Shown piece by piece: positions 568 to 13,686 of a stretch of 64,000 bases of DNA. A model generated the notes under the pieces. It was not told where the DNA came from, searched no databases, and was given only the letters and a program-made list of their open reading frames with translations. The translations under genes were made by a program, and so were the position numbers. The stretch lies in NCBI GenBank assembly GCA_013298845.1, contig JAAFJN010000013.1:62001-126000 (forward strand), written 5' to 3'. Source of the DNA: Chitinophagales bacterium. GTDB lineage: Bacteria; Bacteroidota; Bacteroidia; Chitinophagales; Saprospiraceae. Position 1 is the first letter of the stretch. Every line of letters begins with the position of its first letter.

Positions 568-1215
568 TTAACTTGTTTTTCTTGCCAATACATACAAATG
601 GCCGTTATTTATTCCCCCAATTTCTTTAATTCCGCATTTTTTCATTACTTCAATGTAAAAACCAGATTGGGTTAGATAATTTTCCAACATGGATTCATCC
701 ATAAAATGATGTGGAATTCCGGCGTCTATTCCTTTGTCGGTAATAAAAGTATCCTCTTCTACAAGTTGACCACTTCCGTATGTAACATGTTCTTTTGATA
801 TAACGGTTAATAAGAGAAAACCACCAAATTTGAGAACACGATATATTTCGGAAATTGCTTTTAAAACATCGTTTTTCAAACCATGATTAATCACTGATAT
901 AGAAACAACTGCCTCAAAACTATTATCTTTAAATAATAATTGGGTCATGCAACACTTTTCAAATGATACGTCATTTGTATTGCACACTTCCAAAACGTAT
1001 GATTTTGCAGCATCAATAGCCACCTCGCTAATGTCACAAGCGGAAACCGTAAATCCAGTTTCCAAATATGGAATGATATTTCTACCACAGCCACAGCCAA
1101 GGTCAAGAATATGTTGAACCTCTTTGTTTTTAAATAATTCTATGCTATCCAATACAAGCGGGGCAGGCTTTAACCAACGATTTTCTTTGTCTTTAAATAA
1201 CTCATTCCAATTCAT
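568..1215 (-). CDS. class I SAM-dependent methyltransferase
   Basis: 215 aa. Motif I (ILDLGCGCGRNIIPYL, about residues 36-51) is the glycine-rich SAM-binding loop. An acidic residue follows at the end of strand 2 (SACDISEVAID), and a motif-IV-like FEAVVSISVINH and motif VI LKFGGFLLLTV follow in order. The architecture matches small-molecule methyltransferases of the UbiE/TehB type (Methyltransf_11/25). The methyl acceptor is unknown. The gene is visibly AT-richer than the housekeeping genes further right and sits next to the similarly AT-rich NTPase gene at 1539-5834, on the same strand. The two may have arrived together, but nothing in the sequence proves a joint function. Confidence 0.85.
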   Translation of the reverse strand: MNWNELFKDKENRWLKPAPLVLDSIELFKNKEVQHILDLGCGCGRNIIPYLETGFTVSACDISEVAIDAAKSYVLEVCNTNDVSFEKCCMTQLLFKDNSFEAVVSISVINHGLKNDVLKAISEIYRVLKFGGFLLLTVISKEHVTYGSGQLVEEDTFITDKGIDAGIPHHFMDESMLENYLTQSGFYIEVMKKCGIKEIGGINNGHLYVLARKTS

Positions 1216-1379
1216 GATGTCCTATTTTTTAGTGATTAAAAACTTGTAATTGTTCATTTATCAATCATTTAATTCTTACAGGGCATTGGTGGCATGGACA
1301 GCCAGCCGGAGGGATGTCGCGGTGACATTCCGGCAGCAAACATAAGAAAAGTTGTTGTAATGCAAACTTAGAAGATGAA

Positions 1380-1564
1380 AGTTTTCTCACACTTACATGG
1401 TGGCGTGTAGTAAGCCGAAGTGTGTTTGCGTGATGGAGGCGCGGCTCCGGAAGGGCTTACTTACCTTTAGTAGGTGCTGTGAGCCGCCGGATACGAGGCT
1501 TTCGGTTGGTTCGGGATTGTGGGAGAGGGCTGGGGCGGTTATGGGTCGCCTCTTTCTACTCGAT
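1380..1564 (+). mobile_element. possible group II intron 3' remnant (domains V/VI)
   Basis: This GC-richer patch lies between two AT-rich genes and has no convincing protein. Its right end resembles the 3' end of bacterial group II introns. A GAGCCGCCGGATACGAGG segment (about 1481-1498) resembles the start of domain V. A domain VI-like stem follows, ending in the terminal signature CTACTCGAT (about 1556-1564), with an A that could be the bulged branch point. The predicted pairing of domain V is imperfect, so if the call is right this is a decayed fragment. No maturase gene is present and the left boundary is unclear (possibly near 1260). The call rests on remembered consensus shape only. Confidence 0.35.
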
Positions 1565-4500
1565 CACCATCGTTTCGTTCTTCTAAAAAATATGGATGAT
1601 GTTTTAACCGTCCACTTTTATAATAAACAACTCCTGAAATATTTAAACTCCCAATCCATTCATCGCGCTGTGCATATCCTCCACCAATAATTAATTTTTC
1701 ACCTAATACAGTCCAAATAATTTTCATGTTGTTATCTTCTAGTTTTTGAACTAAGTCGTTTTTCCTTACAACAAGACACGAATGAGTTGGGTGTGTTGCA
1801 CAAGGGTCAAAGCAAATCATTTGTCCATCTTTACTTAAGAGTTGTCCTTCAATTTTTGAGTATTGCAAGTCGAGAAGATTGAAAATAATTTCTGTAGGTT
1901 TATAAAAATTAATAGTTGATTCTTTCGATGCGTCATATTCTTCTTCCCACAAATAATCAAGGGCTGTCATTGCAACTTTACCGACAAGTTGATGTGTTTT
2001 GTTATCTTGAATTTCAGACCAATTTTCATCACTATAATACCGGGATCTAAAAGTTTCATTTGCTGCTGACCAATAATATTCTCTACTAAACATTTGATAT
2101 CTATTTGCTGATTCAGGCATCCATCTTCCCATAAAGTTTTTTCCCTTTAACCAATTCAAAATTTTTGTGTGTTCTTTTTTCTTAGTGATATAACTTCTGA
2201 TTTGATACCATAAATCTTTGTGTGGGTTTTCATATATTTCTTCTCCGATGTCTACTGGTTCAGTCCAAGATTTGTGCATTTCAAGCACTAACCATTCTAT
2301 ACCGTTTTTGTCAAATATACTTATCATTTCTAATGGATTTGGTAAGTCATCGGTATTGAAAATCCATTCTTTGTGCGGAAGATTCCAATTATTGTAATTT
2401 ACAGAGTTCCACCAAAATTTTTCATTCTTGTTTTCTGGATTTCCTTTTATTGTAATTGTCGGGTCAATATCTCTAACATATGGTTTCCAAGGTCCTGAAT
2501 AAGGAATTGGCTTTGCGCTTTTACTGTATGAATCTTCGTAAAAGGGAAGATTATCAGAAACTCTTGCAAGTAATTCATAGAACGCAATCCATTGATATTT
2601 TTTTCCAATTCTTTCTGTTTTATGAGAATGCCTTCCATCTGAACGAACATTTCTGTCAAATTTTCCGTGCTTTTCTACATCATAGCCATATTTTTCAATA
2701 ATCCATTTAACAGCCAAATTGCTTATAAGTTGTGCATCTACTCTCCAATTTCTTAAAGCACTTTGAAATGTATATCTGCCAAAATCGCCATACATGCCTC
2801 CGCCACCTTCTGTTTTCATTGAACTGATAATGGAATTCAAACTCCAATAGTAATCTTTGAAGTCTTTTGCTGTATAGTCATATTCGTATTTTTTAATTTC
2901 TTCATTGCTTGGAAATGAAGTTGGCAAATCGCTTTTAAAGGGGGGCTTTGTTTTGTTTAAATCAAAATCAAACTTGTGTCCTTTGAAAACAGCGTAATCG
3001 ATAATTCCTCTTGCATAATCCCTCAGTAAAATATCAGGAACTACATTATTTGCATTGAAAATAGATTCATAAACGCAAATTCCTAATTCTTTTAATGATT
3101 CGACTTTACTTGTTCTTACAGCGCATCCCAATGCAACGGCATATATTCGCTGTAAAACATAAGGGTCATTGACTTTTTCAAATGCTTTAATGAGTTGTAT
3201 TAAAACTATGATTCGTTCTTCTAAAAGACAAATAATTGCTTTTGTTGTAGAATCTCTTAACGCTCTATTAGTGCTTGTTGTAAACCAAAATAATGTTTGG
3301 CACATCAGACGAATTGATTCATCTGAAATGTTTTCCCGTTTATAATCAGTCCATGCCCAATCAATCATTCGTTGAATTGAAGTGATTTCATCAGGATAAC
3401 TTGGATATTGATGATGAATAAATGTTGTCCACCACGAATCTCTGTCAGCCATACTGAATCTCATTAAATGACTATGCAGAAAATCGCTATTGAAATAGTG
3501 TTTTGGCTGTGATGTGATTAAAAGAATTGTGTGGATGAAATAATCGGATAAGCCGGGCTTTTGAATCACAACTTCGTTTATGTAACTTTTTAGTTTCTCA
3601 TTGATTGTAACTTTCTTTCTCCATATGATACTTTCAACAAATGCCTGTGCGACAACATCAAATTCTTTGGCGTGTGGTGCGGCTTCAAACAATTCTACAC
3701 CTACCAATTCAGGTAATTGAATTGAAAGGGCTTCAATAATTCCTTTATTGTAATGAGATTTATATCGGTTTTCAAGAAGTGAATACAGTTTATTTCCTGC
3801 GACAAAAGTATTGGTTGGATTCTTCTTGTCAAAATGATTATCCAGCAAGTAGGCACAAACTAAATGGTCGCTAAATCTTTCATAGGAAAGATATACTCCA
3901 TCAAAAGAACTTCCACCTCTTTCCCAATAAATATTTTGTGTAAGAAGGCCTTCTCGAATTAAATCTTCAAAGAATTGAGCAGGTTCGGTAATTGAGTAGT
4001 CTTTAGCAAATTTAGTAACTGTAGCATATGCATCGTCAAATTTTATGTAAGTGTTTTCTGTATCAGCAATTTGGCTTGCGATTTTTTTTACAACCTTTTG
4101 AGTAAGATTTAAGTTTTCGGGTAGTTTGTGTTTTTCTGAAATCTTGCTGTTGATAGCTTCGAGATAGAAATTAAGAATAGTAGAAATGCCTTCATAGCCA
4201 TCTGGTATTTCGTGTAGTCCTTTTTTTCGTAACCCATCGCAAAATAACTTCAGAAGTAATGGATTTGAAAATTCAGGGTGAAGCAAAGGAATGCTTGGTT
4301 GTTTAATTCCGTAATTTTCAAAAAAATGTTTTGACGCTTCATATTCGTGTTGTGAAAAACCATGATGAATAACTTTTATGACTTCTTTATTTTCGATTAA
4401 TGATTCAGGAATTAACAGTTTCTCATAAGAAGTTCTAATGCTAAAAACCACACCTATGTTTGGAAACTTCTTTACTGAGGAAATGAATCCTGCTATATAG

Positions 4501-5834
4501 TTTTTCCACAACTCCTTTCCTTTCCCTTCATTTATTGCATCTATCAGAATTAAAATACGGCTCTCTGTTGTTTCGGCTTTTGCATTTAGCGAAGCAAGAA
4601 ACGTATCTTTTTCACAATTTAGTTGAAGTTGCTTTTTAATTTGACTCCAAGGTTCTTCTTCCGTGAAATGCTGGCCAAGCAATAAAATTGAGAATTGATT
4701 TCGTTCGCTCCTTTTTACAGCAACATCAGCAAGCAAATGTGATTTCCCTTTTCCTGCATCGCCTGTTAAAAGCATAAATGGATTATTTGAAAGAAGAACG
4801 GTTGTGCCTTCAAGAAATTCAATAAATTCATAAACTGAACCGTTAAATCTTCTAAAAAGTTCTATATCCCAACCAAATTTATTTGTATCACTATCGTGTT
4901 TTCTTTTTTCTTTTTCAAGAGTAGAATCTATTTCATATAATTTTTGGATTAAATCATCAATGATATTCCCAACATCTTTTAATAGAGTACTCAAACCTAC
5001 ATTATCAATATTGCCTATTTCAATATAATCAATTTGTTCACATTGTTGTCTGAATATTGTAATTATTGAAACAATTCTATCAATATGGTCTTTAACTTTA
5101 GATTCATTTATATGATTAACTGCTTTTCTGTAATGATGAAGTAAGTCGTCAAGATAAGAGTTAAATTGTTTGTTGAAATATTTATCTCTGCTAATTCCGT
5201 CAAATATTTTTGCAATTGGCAATTCAAAATTTAGTTCGGGCGTATAGCGTTTGTCAAGGTTTTTGACATTCTCATCAAGTTTTTGTTTAAACCATGTATC
5301 GGAAAATTCTTCCTTACCAAACCAATAGTAAAGTTTTCCTTCGTTTTCTTTTTTATGTAATCGGTCAAAAATTTCTGAATTTCCCCAAAACTCAAATTCG
5401 ATTTTTCTTCCACTTGAATTTGCAAACACTTCCCATTCGGCTACTTTTGCATTCCATTTATCCATAAAATGGTTCACTCGCTGTCCTTTTTGTTTTCCCT
5501 TTGTGATGGTTATTCTTGGGTCTGGTCTATCTAATGGAACGCAGATGTAATACTTTTTTAAATTCGGGTGTTTTACAAAAGCGGTTTTAAACGATTTATC
5601 AAGTTGCGTCCATTGTGAATCGCCCATTGTGGGGAAAAATTTTGCCTGCCAACCATACTCTGAATTATCAGAAAGAACACAATACGCTTCAACACCACCG
5701 TCAGGTGCCGCAACTCTGATAAATTTAGATTTGTTTGAAATTTGTTCAACTCTTGCTAATTGACAAACAAGTTCTTCAAATCCATTTTTAATATCACCGT
5801 CAAATGCGCGCAATTTATTCCATTCAATATTCAT
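1539..5834 (-). CDS. STAND-type NTPase with N-terminal Mrr/Cap4-like nuclease (Avs-like defence protein)
   Basis: 1431 aa. The N-terminus carries a PD-(D/E)XK (Mrr/Cap4-like) signature: PDGGVEAY (residues 44-51, acidic E49) and GWQAKFF (61-67, Q63 and K65). A P-loop NTPase follows: Walker A GDAGKGKS near residue 357-364, Walker B ILILIDAINEG near 425-435, and a sensor-like VVFSIRTSY. The remaining roughly 900 residues look mainly helical with no known enzyme motif, as expected of a STAND sensor region. Nuclease plus DA(I/L)NEG-type NTPase plus long C-terminus is the layout of Avs anti-phage proteins, which recognise phage proteins and then cut DNA. The codons are AT-rich compared with neighbours, suggesting transfer. 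The last residues (RVERGDP) are encoded by antisense of the putative intron remnant, so the native C-terminus may be altered. The fold call is strong; the defence role is inferred. Confidence 0.78.
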   Translation of the reverse strand: MNIEWNKLRAFDGDIKNGFEELVCQLARVEQISNKSKFIRVAAPDGGVEAYCVLSDNSEYGWQAKFFPTMGDSQWTQLDKSFKTAFVKHPNLKKYYICVPLDRPDPRITITKGKQKGQRVNHFMDKWNAKVAEWEVFANSSGRKIEFEFWGNSEIFDRLHKKENEGKLYYWFGKEEFSDTWFKQKLDENVKNLDKRYTPELNFELPIAKIFDGISRDKYFNKQFNSYLDDLLHHYRKAVNHINESKVKDHIDRIVSIITIFRQQCEQIDYIEIGNIDNVGLSTLLKDVGNIIDDLIQKLYEIDSTLEKEKRKHDSDTNKFGWDIELFRRFNGSVYEFIEFLEGTTVLLSNNPFMLLTGDAGKGKSHLLADVAVKRSERNQFSILLLGQHFTEEEPWSQIKKQLQLNCEKDTFLASLNAKAETTESRILILIDAINEGKGKELWKNYIAGFISSVKKFPNIGVVFSIRTSYEKLLIPESLIENKEVIKVIHHGFSQHEYEASKHFFENYGIKQPSIPLLHPEFSNPLLLKLFCDGLRKKGLHEIPDGYEGISTILNFYLEAINSKISEKHKLPENLNLTQKVVKKIASQIADTENTYIKFDDAYATVTKFAKDYSITEPAQFFEDLIREGLLTQNIYWERGGSSFDGVYLSYERFSDHLVCAYLLDNHFDKKNPTNTFVAGNKLYSLLENRYKSHYNKGIIEALSIQLPELVGVELFEAAPHAKEFDVVAQAFVESIIWRKKVTINEKLKSYINEVVIQKPGLSDYFIHTILLITSQPKHYFNSDFLHSHLMRFSMADRDSWWTTFIHHQYPSYPDEITSIQRMIDWAWTDYKRENISDESIRLMCQTLFWFTTSTNRALRDSTTKAIICLLEERIIVLIQLIKAFEKVNDPYVLQRIYAVALGCAVRTSKVESLKELGICVYESIFNANNVVPDILLRDYARGIIDYAVFKGHKFDFDLNKTKPPFKSDLPTSFPSNEEIKKYEYDYTAKDFKDYYWSLNSIISSMKTEGGGGMYGDFGRYTFQSALRNWRVDAQLISNLAVKWIIEKYGYDVEKHGKFDRNVRSDGRHSHKTERIGKKYQWIAFYELLARVSDNLPFYEDSYSKSAKPIPYSGPWKPYVRDIDPTITIKGNPENKNEKFWWNSVNYNNWNLPHKEWIFNTDDLPNPLEMISIFDKNGIEWLVLEMHKSWTEPVDIGEEIYENPHKDLWYQIRSYITKKKEHTKILNWLKGKNFMGRWMPESANRYQMFSREYYWSAANETFRSRYYSDENWSEIQDNKTHQLVGKVAMTALDYLWEEEYDASKESTINFYKPTEIIFNLLDLQYSKIEGQLLSKDGQMICFDPCATHPTHSCLVVRKNDLVQKLEDNNMKIIWTVLGEKLIIGGGYAQRDEWIGSLNISGVVYYKSGRLKHHPYFLEERNDGDRVERGDP

Positions 5835-5900
5835 TTATGTGTTATAGTTGTTTTGATTTTAGTTTCACTAACTGCCCTCACCCGCAACTCCATCCCCCCC

Positions 5901-5949
5901 AAAAAACACCGTCCCGCAACCTACCCAAAAGGCAGGCTGCGGGACGGTG
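5901..5949 (-). terminator. rho-independent terminator of the aldehyde dehydrogenase gene
   Basis: A perfect 12-bp inverted repeat (CACCGTCCCGCA at 5907-5918, TGCGGGACGGTG at 5938-5949) encloses a 19-nt loop. Read on the minus strand, the hairpin is followed directly by TTTTTT (5906-5901). It lies about 130 bp past the stop of the minus-strand gene that ends at 6081. It would also shield the promoter region of the NTPase gene starting at 5834. Confidence 0.8.
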
Positions 5950-6080
5950 CAAAACGGTTATGGCGGAGCAATAAATCATCAGGGCCAATGGTTATTGCGA
6001 CAAAATTAAGCCCTTTTTTAAAACCACCAAAATTTTATCTGTAAATTTTTTACATTTTCAATTTATCCCCCCAAAAAAAA

Positions 6081-10302: not shown

Positions 10303-10893
10303 TTAAATAATCACCCTAAACGTCAAATTAATCCGCTCCGAAATGGCCCTTTGGGTTTTGGGAATTTGGTGTTGCCAATGGTGTTGGGTAGGTCCGGCCA
10401 TGAGCAAAAAACTACCGTGGCCGAGTACGAGGTGTTGTTTGACCTGCGTCGCGTTGTGGCGAAAGTGAAACATGCGTTCGGCCCCAAAACTCACCGAACC
10501 AATCACCGGGTTTGCGCCCAGTTCCGGTTCGTCGTCGGCGTGCCACGACATGCTGTCCGAGCCGCCCCGGTAATAGTTGAGTAAAACGCTGTTATACACC
10601 GTTCCCGACAAGGGCTCGATGCGCGCTTTGATGTCCAGCAGCACCGGAAGCCAGGGCATTGGCTGCATGGTAATACCCGAATATTTGTACGATTTGCCCG
10701 CGTCGCCGTACCAGGCCGTCAGGCGGGGCTGGGGAATCCATTTACCAAACATCCGAATGTCGTCTTGTCGCCAGGCGATGGTGGTTTTTAGTTCCTCTAA
10801 CAACGCGTTACTTTCGGCGGCGTTAAACAGCGCCGGAAAATACACGACCCGCGCGTCTGGCATGGGTAATTCGATGGATTCCTGAAAAAGCAT
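10303..10893 (-). CDS. alkB: AlkB-like DNA/RNA repair dioxygenase
   Basis: 196 aa from the ATG at 10893. A longer in-frame start at 10980 would overlap the upstream gene. It is an Fe(II)/2-oxoglutarate dioxygenase that removes alkyl groups from bases (1-methyladenine, 3-methylcytosine) by oxidation. The iron ligands H118-x-D120 (SWHADDE) and H175 (WQHQIPK) and the 2OG-binding RINLTFR (187-193) are all present. The layout resembles the short ALKBH2/3-like group. The start lies 1 nt after the stop of the bshB1-like gene, so the two are probably cotranscribed. Confidence 0.92.
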   Translation of the reverse strand: MLFQESIELPMPDARVVYFPALFNAAESNALLEELKTTIAWRQDDIRMFGKWIPQPRLTAWYGDAGKSYKYSGITMQPMPWLPVLLDIKARIEPLSGTVYNSVLLNYYRGGSDSMSWHADDEPELGANPVIGSVSFGAERMFHFRHNATQVKQHLVLGHGSFLLMAGPTQHHWQHQIPKTQRAISERINLTFRVII

Positions 10894-10894
10894 A

Positions 10895-11614
10895 TTATTG
10901 TAGATCGAACAAATTACGCACTCCCGGGGTGCGCACGGCGATGAAACCTTCGGCGTATTCGGTCTGAATGGCGCGACCAAAGACGCGGGCTTTGGCTTCC
11001 ATAAACTGCAAAAAATCTTTACCGGAAATGGGGGTGCTGGGCATTTGGTTATCGGTGCTGAAAAACTGGGTTTTAAACGCCATAATGGCCTCCATTTTTC
11101 GTTCCCAAAAAGGCGTGATATCTACCACAAAATCAGGGGTAAGTTGTTGATCCTGAATGTAATGGTACACGGCCTTTGGTCGCCATTTCGCCTGCGGCTG
11201 CCCGTCGGTGGTCAAGGTTTCAATTTTGGCCAAACCCGCGTAAAAGCAGGCATCCACCACCATTTGGGCCGCCCGCCCGTGATCGGGGTGACGGTCCTGC
11301 GGGGTGTTGCACAACACAATTTCCGGTTGGTATTTGCGCAGGTAATACACCACTTTTAACCATTGTTCGGGGGTGTTCGTAAACAGCCCGTCGGGTACGT
11401 CGGACATTTCGCGAAATGCGGCCCCCGAAATGGCGGCGGCGTTCATGGCCTCTTCGTAGCGGGTATCGGCCGTTCCCCGGGTGCCCAGTTCACCTTTGCT
11501 CAGGTCCAGCAATCCGAAGGTTTTTCCTTCCGCTGCGTGTTTCATTAATGTACCGATGGCGCTTAATTCCACATCGTCGGGGTGGATTCCGATGGCAAGT
11601 ATATCTATTTTCAT
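10895..11614 (-). CDS. bshB1: bacillithiol biosynthesis deacetylase BshB1
   Basis: 239 aa, PIG-L/LmbE-like zinc deacetylase. The zinc site is visible as H11-P-D-D14 and the second motif R-H109-P-D-H112-G. The N-terminal run MKIDILAIGIHPDD and the KGELGTRG segment (about 40-47) are typical of BshB1, which removes acetate from GlcNAc-malate in bacillithiol synthesis. Bacillithiol is the low-molecular-weight thiol of many Bacteroidota. Cotranscription with alkB, 1 nt downstream, suggests a joint response to electrophile or alkylation stress, which is my inference. Confidence 0.92.
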   Translation of the reverse strand: MKIDILAIGIHPDDVELSAIGTLMKHAAEGKTFGLLDLSKGELGTRGTADTRYEEAMNAAAISGAAFREMSDVPDGLFTNTPEQWLKVVYYLRKYQPEIVLCNTPQDRHPDHGRAAQMVVDACFYAGLAKIETLTTDGQPQAKWRPKAVYHYIQDQQLTPDFVVDITPFWERKMEAIMAFKTQFFSTDNQMPSTPISGKDFLQFMEAKARVFGRAIQTEYAEGFIAVRTPGVRNLFDLQ

Positions 11615-11654
11615 AATTAACGCGGCAAAAGTATCATTTTTTAAGCAACACCGA

Positions 11655-11662
11655 TACCTTTG
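11655..11662 (+). promoter_or_regulatory. possible -7 element (TACCTTTG)
   Basis: TACCTTTG matches the TAnnTTTG -7 consensus and lies 43 bp before the ATG at 11705. No good TTTG is visible 19-21 bp upstream. A minus-strand TACTTTTG (11633-11626) lies 12 bp from the bshB1 start. Confidence 0.35.
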
Positions 11663-11704
11663 TCCAAATGTCTTGCTGAACTCCGTTCGGCTTATTCTAT
11701 TTTT

Positions 11705-12601
11705 ATGAACGACGCATTAACACCAGAATTGCAGGAATGGTTGTCTGTCCGGGACGAACACATTAACCAATTACAAGACGAACTCGCGCGGGCGCACGCG
11801 GCCCTGCACGAGGCGCACCGGCAGAAACGCGACGTGAACGCAGTACGGGCCGAACATACGGCTTTTGTCAACGCTGCGCAGCAAAAAACGACCCAAATGG
11901 AACAGGAATTGCACCAATGGCAGCACGATTACGAGCAGTTGCGCATTCAAAAAGGTGGTTTTGGTTTTAAAATGTTGTTAGCATCCGGCATGTTGGCTAC
12001 GCTAGTGGGTTTGTTGGCGGGTTGGTTGGTGTTTCGGCAAAAAGACTCCAACGAGGCCTTATTCCGACAATTTGTAAAAGCGGCGGGGTTCAATCTCGAA
12101 TACAATTTGACCCACGAACAATACGACGATGCGCATAAAATTGTGCAAACCTACCAACAAAACCAAACCTTTGCGCCCGTACGCGCCGAATTGGACTTTA
12201 TTGCGGCGTTGATTGCGGCGGTGCAACTCCACGGCGATTCTACCTTGCGCGACATTGGTTATTCGGTCACCAACGACGATACCATCAGTACCCGCCAACC
12301 CCAACCCACGCGCACGCTCGTGATTACCCACGGTAAGGTACACGTGCGCTCCGAAGCCTTACCCGATGCGCCCGTTTTGGCGGCTTTGGTAAAAAAAGAT
12401 AAAGTAGGGCAGTGGGACCGTACGGCTGATTTGGCCAAAATGCGCACCACCGACGCCAAGGGCCGCAAAGGCATCGCCGAAGATTATTGGTACGAAGTGG
12501 AAACGCCCGACGGGCAAAAAGGCTGGTTGTTCGGCTTTTTTACCAATGCTTCTCTCCAGCGTTTTAAACCAGATTCTTTGGGAGTGAATAGTGAAAAGTG
12601 A
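11705..12601 (+). CDS. coiled-coil membrane protein with C-terminal SH3-like domain
   Basis: 298 aa from the ATG at 11705; a start at 11660 is also open. Residues 5-90 are charged and heptad-like (coiled coil). One membrane span follows (FKMLLASGMLATLVGLLAGWLV, about 88-110), then a helical region (115-195). The end is a bacterial SH3-like domain (about 200-285: VHVRSEALPDAPVLAALVKKDKV ... YWYEVETPDGQKGWLFG). Bacterial SH3 domains of this kind usually bind cell-wall peptides, so the C-terminus is probably periplasmic. Function is unknown. The last residues, GVNSEK and the stop, are encoded by the 7-bp repeat array that follows. Confidence 0.7.
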   Translation: MNDALTPELQEWLSVRDEHINQLQDELARAHAALHEAHRQKRDVNAVRAEHTAFVNAAQQKTTQMEQELHQWQHDYEQLRIQKGGFGFKMLLASGMLATLVGLLAGWLVFRQKDSNEALFRQFVKAAGFNLEYNLTHEQYDDAHKIVQTYQQNQTFAPVRAELDFIAALIAAVQLHGDSTLRDIGYSVTNDDTISTRQPQPTRTLVITHGKVHVRSEALPDAPVLAALVKKDKVGQWDRTADLAKMRTTDAKGRKGIAEDYWYEVETPDGQKGWLFGFFTNASLQRFKPDSLGVNSEK

Positions 12602-12654
12602 AGAGTGAAAAGTGAAGAGTGAAAAGTGAAGAGTGGATAGTGAAGAGTGAATAG
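12582..12654 (+). repeat. left arm of inverted 7-bp repeat array
   Basis: Tandem near-identical heptamers AGTGAAG/AGTGAAA/AGTGAAT, about ten copies. The array starts inside the 3' end of the SH3-protein gene and supplies its last codons (V-N-S-E-K-stop). The reverse complement of the same unit makes up the right arm at 12757-12868. The AT-rich spacer 12655-12756 between the arms has no gene. Confidence 0.9.
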
Positions 12655-12756
12655 TTTTTTTATTAAAAATTTAAAAGTGAGTAAGTTGTGATTGGAAAAG
12701 TTTAGTGCTTTTTGGATGGGGACATAGTGAAAATAACCCGCGGTGGGCCAAATTTC

Positions 12757-12868
12757 ACTCACTCTTCACTCTTCACTCTTCACTTTTCACTTTTCACTCT
12801 TCACTCTTCACTCTTCACTTTTCACTTTTCACTCTTCACTTTTCACTCTTCACTTTTCACTCTTCACT
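12757..12868 (-). repeat. right arm of inverted 7-bp repeat array
   Basis: About fifteen tandem copies of CTTCACT/TTTCACT, the reverse complement of the left arm. The array runs into the 3' end of folP and encodes its last residues V-K-S-E-K and stop codon. Transcripts crossing both arms could form a long hairpin. Confidence 0.9.
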
Positions 12869-13686
12869 AACTCAAACAGCGTGATAACGTCGCGGGCGGC
12901 GGCGACGTCGTGGACGCGGAGGATTTGCGCCCCTTTTTGCAGCGCGAACAAATGTAAGGCGCTGGTGGCGGGTAAGGTTTCTTCCGGGGTGCAGTTTAAT
13001 AGTTTGTAAATCATGGATTTGCGCGATACCCCGGCCAATAAGGGCAATTGAAGCACTTGTTGTAATTGGTCCATTGTTTTGAGCAGGGTGTAATTGTGGG
13101 CAATGGTTTTGCCAAAGCCAAATCCGGGATCAATAACGATGTCTTTGATGCCTTTTTGGCGCAAAATATGCACTTTCGCGATTAAAAAATCGAGCACTTC
13201 GGTGGTAATATCCGTGTATTCGGGGGCCGATTGCATGGTTTGCGGCGTGCCTTTGATGTGCATCAACACGTAAGGGACGCCCAATTCGGCCACCGTATCG
13301 AGTAGTTTGGGGTCCATATCACCCGCTGAAATATCGTTCACCATAGCGGCTCCGGCCTGTACTGCGGCCTTGGCCACGCCCGCTCGCCAGGTATCTACCG
13401 AGATAATTTGCGTCGGATACGCCCGCTTGATGGCCTCAATCACGGGTACAACCCGCTCAATTTCGGTTGCTTCGTCCACAATCGCCGAGCCGGGCCGCGA
13501 CGAGGCTCCACCGACGTCAATTATCGTTGCGCCTTCCCGAATCATTTGTTCGGCGCGGAGAAAGGCCGCTTCGGTGTCCGTGTACCGCCCGCCGTCGTAA
13601 AAAGAATCGGGGGTAGTGTTGAGGATACCCATCACGACCGGTTGACTCAAATCGAGCAATTGGCCCTTGCATTGGAGGGTCATCAT
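12850..13686 (-). CDS. folP: dihydropteroate synthase
   Basis: 278 aa from the ATG at 13686, which begins 2 nt after the stop of the upstream lipoprotein gene; a start at 13707 would overlap that gene. It joins 6-hydroxymethyl-dihydropterin diphosphate with p-aminobenzoate in folate synthesis (cytoplasm). Family motifs are complete: GILNTTPDSFYDGG, GASSRPGS, ISVDTWR, VNDIS, DPGFGFGKT, GVSRKSMI, and LRVHDV near the end. The C-terminal VKSEK is encoded by the repeat array. It is probably cotranscribed with the lipoprotein gene. Confidence 0.95.
   Translation of the reverse strand: MMTLQCKGQLLDLSQPVVMGILNTTPDSFYDGGRYTDTEAAFLRAEQMIREGATIIDVGGASSRPGSAIVDEATEIERVVPVIEAIKRAYPTQIISVDTWRAGVAKAAVQAGAAMVNDISAGDMDPKLLDTVAELGVPYVLMHIKGTPQTMQSAPEYTDITTEVLDFLIAKVHILRQKGIKDIVIDPGFGFGKTIAHNYTLLKTMDQLQQVLQLPLLAGVSRKSMIYKLLNCTPEETLPATSALHLFALQKGAQILRVHDVAAARDVITLFELVKSEK

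Follow-up and report, generated by a model that had tools for sequence, protein, structure and literature searches.

We report that a gene on the minus strand of a 64,000-nucleotide stretch of a Chitinophagales genome (GCA_013298845.1, contig JAAFJN010000013.1, positions 62,001 to 126,000 of the forward strand; hereafter the window) encodes Avs2 (AVAST type 2), an anti-phage STAND NTPase, in a form that carries a probable nuclease domain at its N-terminus. By analogy with its family, the protein very probably acts by sensing a phage protein, oligomerising and cleaving DNA. Its three closest relatives, found in other Bacteroidota, resemble integron cassettes that measure about 4.5 kb and carry attC sites. 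The family is known; what might surprise a specialist is the cassette context of the relatives.

The gene and its parts are placed as follows.

1539..5834, minus strand: avs2 gene, STAND NTPase of 1431 amino acids (open reading frame, family profile and structure matches)
5295..5834, minus strand: N-terminal domain, residues about 1-180, probable Mrr-type PD-(D/E)XK nuclease (profile comparisons)
5640..5702, minus strand: putative catalytic motifs D45-G-G-V-E49 and Q63-A-K65 (unchanged in all 12 nuclease-type proteins)
4035..4817, minus strand: STAND/NACHT-like NTPase module, residues about 340-600 (Pfam, 9o4e match, alignment)
4740..4763, minus strand: Walker A GDAGKGKS, residues 358-365 (sequence and 14-protein alignment)
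4524..4547, minus strand: Walker B LIDAINEG, residues about 430-437 (sequence and 14-protein alignment)
1575..3887, minus strand: C-terminal sensor region, residues about 650-1420, homologous to the Avs2 structure 9o4e (9o4e match, alignment)

Family identity and conservation

The window protein is, judged by its profile scores, an ordinary member of Avs2 itself, since it passes the cut-off of the equivalog model NCBIfam NF041813 with 1411 bits against the 1000 demanded. When PADLOC was searched up to an E-value of 10, only Avs2 models matched the full-length protein (six models, the best at 1608 bits), with the profile PDLC02162 spanning residues 1-1407 and four of the six models matching the N-terminal domain alone as well. 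The E-values of the best Avs2 models were given as 0, and no other family came near in PADLOC or NCBIfam. Among solved structures the sole meaningful match was 9o4e, an Avs2, with 872 bits overall over residues 177-986 and 1037-1410 (541 and 336 bits by block, the latter for residues 1037-1410). The Pfam NACHT model remained under its cut-off for this protein (20.4 of 26.7 bits). The window Avs2 is matched by 76 plasmid records, each at less than 60% identity, and by two phage records. The sequence-only reading of this DNA had proposed an Avs-like STAND NTPase, perhaps of a divergent Avs branch; the first part is supported at the level of sequence by the NF041813 score, by the exclusively Avs2 matches in PADLOC, by 9o4e and by the invariant Walker residues, and the divergent branch is ruled out by the equivalog score.

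The frame opens with ATG and runs uninterrupted for 1431 codons, and both the frame and the motifs GVEAY/QAK, GDAGKGKS and LIDAINEG lie where they had been placed before. When 14 Avs2 proteins were aligned, the Walker residues G358, A360, G361, G363, K364, D432, N435 and E436 proved invariant in every one. Near the N-terminus the window protein reads D45-G-G-V-E49 and W62-Q63-A64-K65. Because the Walker and N-terminal motif residues are invariant across the aligned relatives, these motifs are not attributable to chance. The ratio of nonsynonymous to synonymous substitution rates (dN/dS) of the window gene is 0.13 against the relative from Lunatimonas (L001), 0.14 against that from Dyadobacter (L002) and 0.11 against that from the Bacteroidetes metagenome-assembled genome (MAG) GWA2_31_9 (L003), values that indicate purifying selection as an average over the whole divergence, in which a recent loss of function would not show.

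The N-terminal effector domain

By inference from profile comparisons, the N-terminal domain is a probable Mrr-type PD-(D/E)XK nuclease. The window-type domain is present in 12 of the 14 aligned proteins, the exceptions being L052 and L054, and E20, E21, D45, G47, E49, Q63 and K65 are invariant in all twelve. A profile of these twelve members, searched against solved chains up to an E-value of 10, gave a single match, Avs4 8dgf (E 4.9e-4, profile positions 5-98), in which GVE pairs with GIE and WQAK with WQSK. The PADLOC Avs4 profile likewise matches the N-terminal domain of 9 of the 12 members, with a best E-value of 1.6e-6. In an hhalign comparison with 18 Mrr_cat domains (20 rows were cut, of which L099, with stop codons, and L087, a wrong stretch, were removed), the profile scored 32.4 with an E-value of 9.3e-5; none of 200 column shuffles reached this score (maximum 22.6), the reversed profile gave 11.3, and scores of 12.0-17.8 came from eight other parts of the Avs2 alignment. 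The motif register of the domain is common to Mrr_cat and to Avs4 8dgf. When viral contigs were scanned with the N-terminal domain alone, no relative turned up. The prediction of a Mrr/Cap4-like nuclease made from the sequence alone is supported on its Mrr side, where kinship with the Avs4 nuclease is added, and the Cap4 part found no match in a thin profile of only five rows (hhalign, E 0.73).

Several observations weigh against this assignment. The Mrr_cat probability is moderate, at 59%, and fell to 26% (E 7.2e-4) when the wrong row L087 was included. No Pfam nuclease family matches the N-terminus in any of the 12 members scanned. In a second set of seven sequences, which takes in three more remote proteins encoded on viral contigs, E20, G47, E49, Q63 and K65 remain invariant and E21 and D45 vary; D45 also has no counterpart in Avs4 8dgf and is, for these two reasons, the weakest of the named motif residues. 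The only solved Avs2 found, 9o4e, contains no recognisable counterpart of the domain, its match beginning only at window residue 177. For L052, a protein of a Vibrio plasmid, the match to 9o4e spans the full length (2380 bits), so that 9o4e belongs to the type with another N-terminus, and the effector action proposed here is consequently argued from Avs4 and Mrr and not from the solved Avs2.

A tree of 23 Avs2 proteins, built with the N-terminus left out, groups the window protein with those of Lunatimonas, Dyadobacter and GWA2_31_9 (100/100), followed by L069 (95/98). Members whose N-terminus is of another kind (the L052 type; L071 and L054; L076, of ambiguous type) are located inside the same group of 17 as the window protein. 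When the nuclease label, given by eye from motifs, is placed on this tree, three changes are needed, of which the starred branches force only one. A repeated exchange of N-terminal effectors among Avs2 proteins is suggested, and the nuclease-type N-terminus may have had a single origin. By eye, the N-termini of the Avs2 proteins at L071 4526-8677 and L054 2527-6618 look hydrophobic and resemble membrane segments and not a nuclease. Three further relatives are incomplete: a decayed remnant without the middle part (L006 5001-5634), a broken gene at a contig end that is divided between two frames (L004 90-2455), and one without the N-terminal part that adjoins a gene resembling, by eye, a transposase (L005 1611-4344).

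Horizontal origin

The window avs2 gene appears, with good support from sequence comparisons, to have been acquired from outside, because its GC content is low, it has no match elsewhere in the genus, and its identity to distant relatives is far above that of a housekeeping comparison. Its GC content is 33.0%, close to the 33.8% of the neighbouring methyltransferase gene (568-1215), against 48.1% for the window from 7704 onward. A search of 42 genomes of the genus (29 with a completeness of 90% or more and a contamination of 5% or less) gave a match only in the genome that holds the window. In a sample of the class, an Avs2 match at an E-value of 1e-30 or better was present in 6 of 395 genomes, and in a sample of the phylum the family was matched in 20 of 395 genomes and the cut-off exceeded in 5 of 395, its own genome being included in every count. 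The Avs2 of the window is 87% identical to that of Lunatimonas and 85% to that of Dyadobacter, whereas PNPase of the host is only 54% and 57% identical to its counterparts in those genomes. The avs2 genes of Lunatimonas (Cyclobacteriaceae) and Dyadobacter (Spirosomataceae) are 97.1% identical at the DNA level. The horizontal acquisition suggested earlier therefore stands on the GC contrast, the absence from the other 41 genomes and the difference between the Avs2 and PNPase identities.

No simple empty site was found in a same-genus genome. In G397 (L064, 8951-12106), the block formed by the aldehyde dehydrogenase gene and a tRNA gene is inverted beside the PAP2 gene, which indicates that this chromosomal spot was rearranged; four more stretches from the genus were compared (L065-L068), and there the aldehyde dehydrogenase gene alone gave a match.

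attC-like sites beside the closest relatives

In each of the three closest relatives the gene resembles an integron cassette. In L001, L002 and L003 alike, avs2 is followed by an attC-like site that can fold, ends in GTT and has a start complementary to the start of the cassette. In L001 the gene is flanked by direct repeats of 149 bases, 89% identical and 4500 bases apart; on closer inspection these are attC-like sites of 127 bases, starting with GTAAC and ending with CGTTA, and one such site lies directly 3' of avs2 in both L002 and L003. L001 and L003 are on short contigs (10.5 and 8.5 kb), which set the limit of the context in view. In known cassettes, the cassette start is complementary to the start of the cassette's own attC site. 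The cassette start GTTACCGCC in L001-L003 is the reverse complement of the start of the cassette's own attC-like site, which reads GGCGGTAAC in L001 and L003 and differs by one base in L002.

Bona fide attC sites have paired ends across an unpaired spacer and a stem with a bulged base. Folded as DNA, the attC-like sites form a long stem; the bottom strands of the L001 and L002 sites show both of these features, end pairing over an unpaired spacer and a bulged stem base, and in the L003 site the ends remain unpaired. The fold z-scores of the four strands tested were -4.4, -3.7, -4.5 and -2.7, with 0, 0, 1 and 2 of 200 shuffles folding as well.

A covariance model, R1, was built from four related sites, so that a divergent site could escape it. 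With 150 candidates scored per genome and the four training sites included in the counts, sites at an E-value of 0.001 or better numbered at least 16 in Lunatimonas, at least 7 in Dyadobacter, at least 10 in GWA2_31_9 and at least 1 in the host of the window. Five stretches of those genomes gave 16 matches at an E-value of 1 or better, of which four come from reading each of the two L001 sites on either strand and two are weak (E 0.003 and 0.02). In the alignment of these 16 rows, both partners have changed in 29 of 33 pairs, and the share of cells that pair is 86.6%, compared with 61.5% after shuffling and no more than 43.7% after sliding, figures that lean toward the model because the alignment was fitted to R1. 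Thirteen of the 16 sites inspected (the two weak and the doubled readings left out, and L002, L003, L071 and L110 added) end in GTT, the exceptions being L071 and two of the three in L133. In L071, the site after the Avs2 gene is a degenerate attC-like site.

Integrase, attI and integron-like arrays

A complete tyrosine recombinase of 378 amino acids is located at 1296-2432 on the Dyadobacter contig L132, where the first open reading frame of an array begins 67 bases past its stop and three R1 sites each lie just 3' of an open reading frame. It scores under the cut-offs of both TIGR02249 (191.8 against 265 bits) and NF040815 (201.3 against 220 bits) and is, by its sequence, integron-integrase-like although below these two curated thresholds. 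The L132 integrase DNA is 78% identical over 361 bases to a broken 3' piece of an integrase directly upstream of avs2 in L002. The two contigs run parallel through a probable attI (CCTACTGACTAATACGA...AATAAC[A/G]GTG) and diverge directly after G-TTA, the point at which the avs2 cassette of L002 begins, which places avs2 in the first cassette position there, directly after the probable attI and the broken integrase. In L003 a 42-residue recombinase piece of the same kind ends about 210 bases upstream of avs2, which is possibly also in first position. In L001, there was no match to the Dyadobacter integrase across the whole 10.5-kb contig, and an attC-like site and other genes precede avs2. Integron expression is reported to peak at the first cassette position (PMC12409362), and integrons have already been recorded in Bacteroidota (PMC8618304, PMC9668308). 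No Avs2 integron cassette was described in the titles and abstract openings searched, a coverage outside which most of the subscription literature lies.

The integron-like arrays L132-L135 (Dyadobacter, Lunatimonas and the Bacteroidetes MAG) hold other genes: McrC (above its cut-off) with a McrB-like protein (below its cut-off) in L132, a SIR2 protein of PADLOC class PDC-S65 in L135, a cytosine methyltransferase, and small gene pairs that resemble toxin-antitoxin modules by eye. On host contig C44 (L110), a Septu-like pair at 10940-12938 (PtuA and PtuB by PADLOC, below the NCBIfam cut-offs) adjoins an attC-like site at 10800-10929, the only place in the host, among the 150 candidates scored, that R1 matches at an E-value of 0.001.

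The window copy and its surroundings

Spread of avs2 among Bacteroidota probably took place as an integron cassette. No attC-like site was found by R1 in the window or in the preceding 16 kb, where a divergent site could be missed, and the window copy has either lost its attC site or never had one. A G-TTA that could mark a cassette boundary lies 38 bases upstream of the avs2 start codon, but a motif so short is expected by chance. Since its relatives are cassette-like, we infer that the window copy could be a former cassette that has lost its attC. In a wider proposal, for which we see the arguments as evenly balanced, Bacteroidota integrons with a divergent integrase reading toward the array would serve as exchange stations for defence genes up to NLR-like sensors, an avs2 cassette of about 4.5 kb would have been taken up directly at attI, the first position, and moved between families, and the window copy would have settled in the chromosome after loss of its attC.

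Three other features adjoin the gene.

1311..1564, minus strand: host interspersed repeat, overlapping the 3' end of avs2 and supplying its last codons (recurs on contigs C33 and C57)
5886..5971, minus strand: host hairpin repeat, following the aldehyde dehydrogenase gene and just preceding avs2 (repeat search)
568..1215, minus strand: class I methyltransferase gene of low GC content, adjoining avs2 (profile match, GC)

The interspersed repeat measures about 250 bases, and on host contigs C33 and C57 (L108, L109) pairs of it bracket single open reading frames, for which reason it was considered as an attC site; no attC ends were seen in it and R1 does not match it, and this candidate was rejected. 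The hairpin repeat, which ends about 50 bases upstream of the avs2 start codon, recurs at seven further places in the genome (eight matches, one place being read on both strands) and is possibly a repeated terminator. At an E-value of 1e-20, none of the 41 other genomes searched from the genus contained a match to the methyltransferase gene. The window contains one tRNA gene, and Rfam at gathering scores yielded nothing more.

Proposed mode of action and alternatives

Family membership, intact motifs, kinship with Mrr and Avs4, purifying selection and horizontal origin are read from the sequence; trigger, oligomerisation, DNA cleavage and protection are predicted from the family. In an E. coli Avs2, the target is reported to be recognised by the C-terminal sensor, after which ATP-dependent trimerisation activates a toxic N-terminal effector, and Avs1-3 are reported to target the large terminase (PMC12724215). 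The nucleases of Avs1-Avs4 are described as cutting phage and host genomes, and a second protein, Ksap1, as also recognisable (PMC12931631). On this model, the C-terminal sensor of the window Avs2 would bind a conserved phage protein made in infection, most likely the large terminase subunit; upon binding, the central STAND NTPase would oligomerise in an ATP-dependent manner; this would gather the Mrr-type nuclease domains of the N-termini, which would then cut DNA; and the cleavage would kill or arrest the infected cell before phage release.

The protein could be an Avs2 whose sensor has shifted from the large terminase to a Ksap1-like, portal or other phage protein, which we regard as unlikely but worth keeping in mind. 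About 85 residues between the two sensor blocks are absent in the window clade, and an Avs2 of Klebsiella is reported to bind Ksap1 as a second protein (PMC12931631, PMC12724215). The same segment is, however, absent from several other Avs2 lineages in the 14-protein alignment, so that its absence is not special to the window gene, and conservation with 9o4e is strong in both blocks.

It is improbable that the window gene has decayed or fallen silent, being separated from its integron and no longer functional with host repeat sequence at its C-terminus. The relatives L001 and L003 stop at the position of window residue 1420, and residues 1421-1431 of the window protein, without counterpart there, come mostly from the host repeat, which starts at 1564 and supplies the codons from about residue 1424; no attC site was found near the gene either. 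Nevertheless, the frame is open over its whole length with the motifs intact, no conserved C-terminal residue is missing, the dN/dS values of about 0.11-0.14 fit a maintained gene within the limit of such averages, and the decayed relatives L006, L004 and L005 look different from the window copy. An ATPase of a restriction-type or KAP family, to which only weak generic AAA and ABC matches point, is ruled out by the PADLOC, NCBIfam and 9o4e matches, in which Avs2 profiles dominate and cover most of the protein, and the best match was never to a non-STAND ATPase.

A nuclease-type Avs2 functioning by the family model, as we favour, would allow an Avs2 from Bacteroidota to be compared with the solved Avs2 bearing another N-terminus, one sensor and motor being joined to different outputs. 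The cassette context of the relatives offers a concrete means for so large a sensor to move between distant bacteria, and makes the role of integrons as reserves of defence genes outside Vibrio testable.

Comparison with known systems

The window protein has in common with Avs2, as defined by NF041813, the PADLOC Avs2 models and 9o4e, the central STAND NTPase and both C-terminal blocks. It differs from 9o4e, and from the full-length relative on a Vibrio plasmid, by its Mrr-type nuclease-like domain, which their N-termini do not resemble in sequence, and its sensor is shorter than that of 9o4e between the two matched blocks. With Avs4 (8dgf) it shares a related N-terminal nuclease domain, whereas no Avs4 profile matches the full-length protein up to an E-value of 10 in PADLOC. 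The nuclease-type Avs2 proteins of Lunatimonas, Dyadobacter and GWA2_31_9 are 84-87% identical to it over their full length; their genes adjoin attC-like sites, of which none was found in the window. As reported for the defence cassettes of Vibrio chromosomal integrons (PMC12409362), these relatives lie between attC-like sites and other defence genes occur in such arrays. Unlike in Vibrio integrons, the Bacteroidota cassette reaches about 4.5 kb, and the one complete integrase found, that of Dyadobacter, scores below the curated cut-off and is oriented in the same direction as its cassettes.

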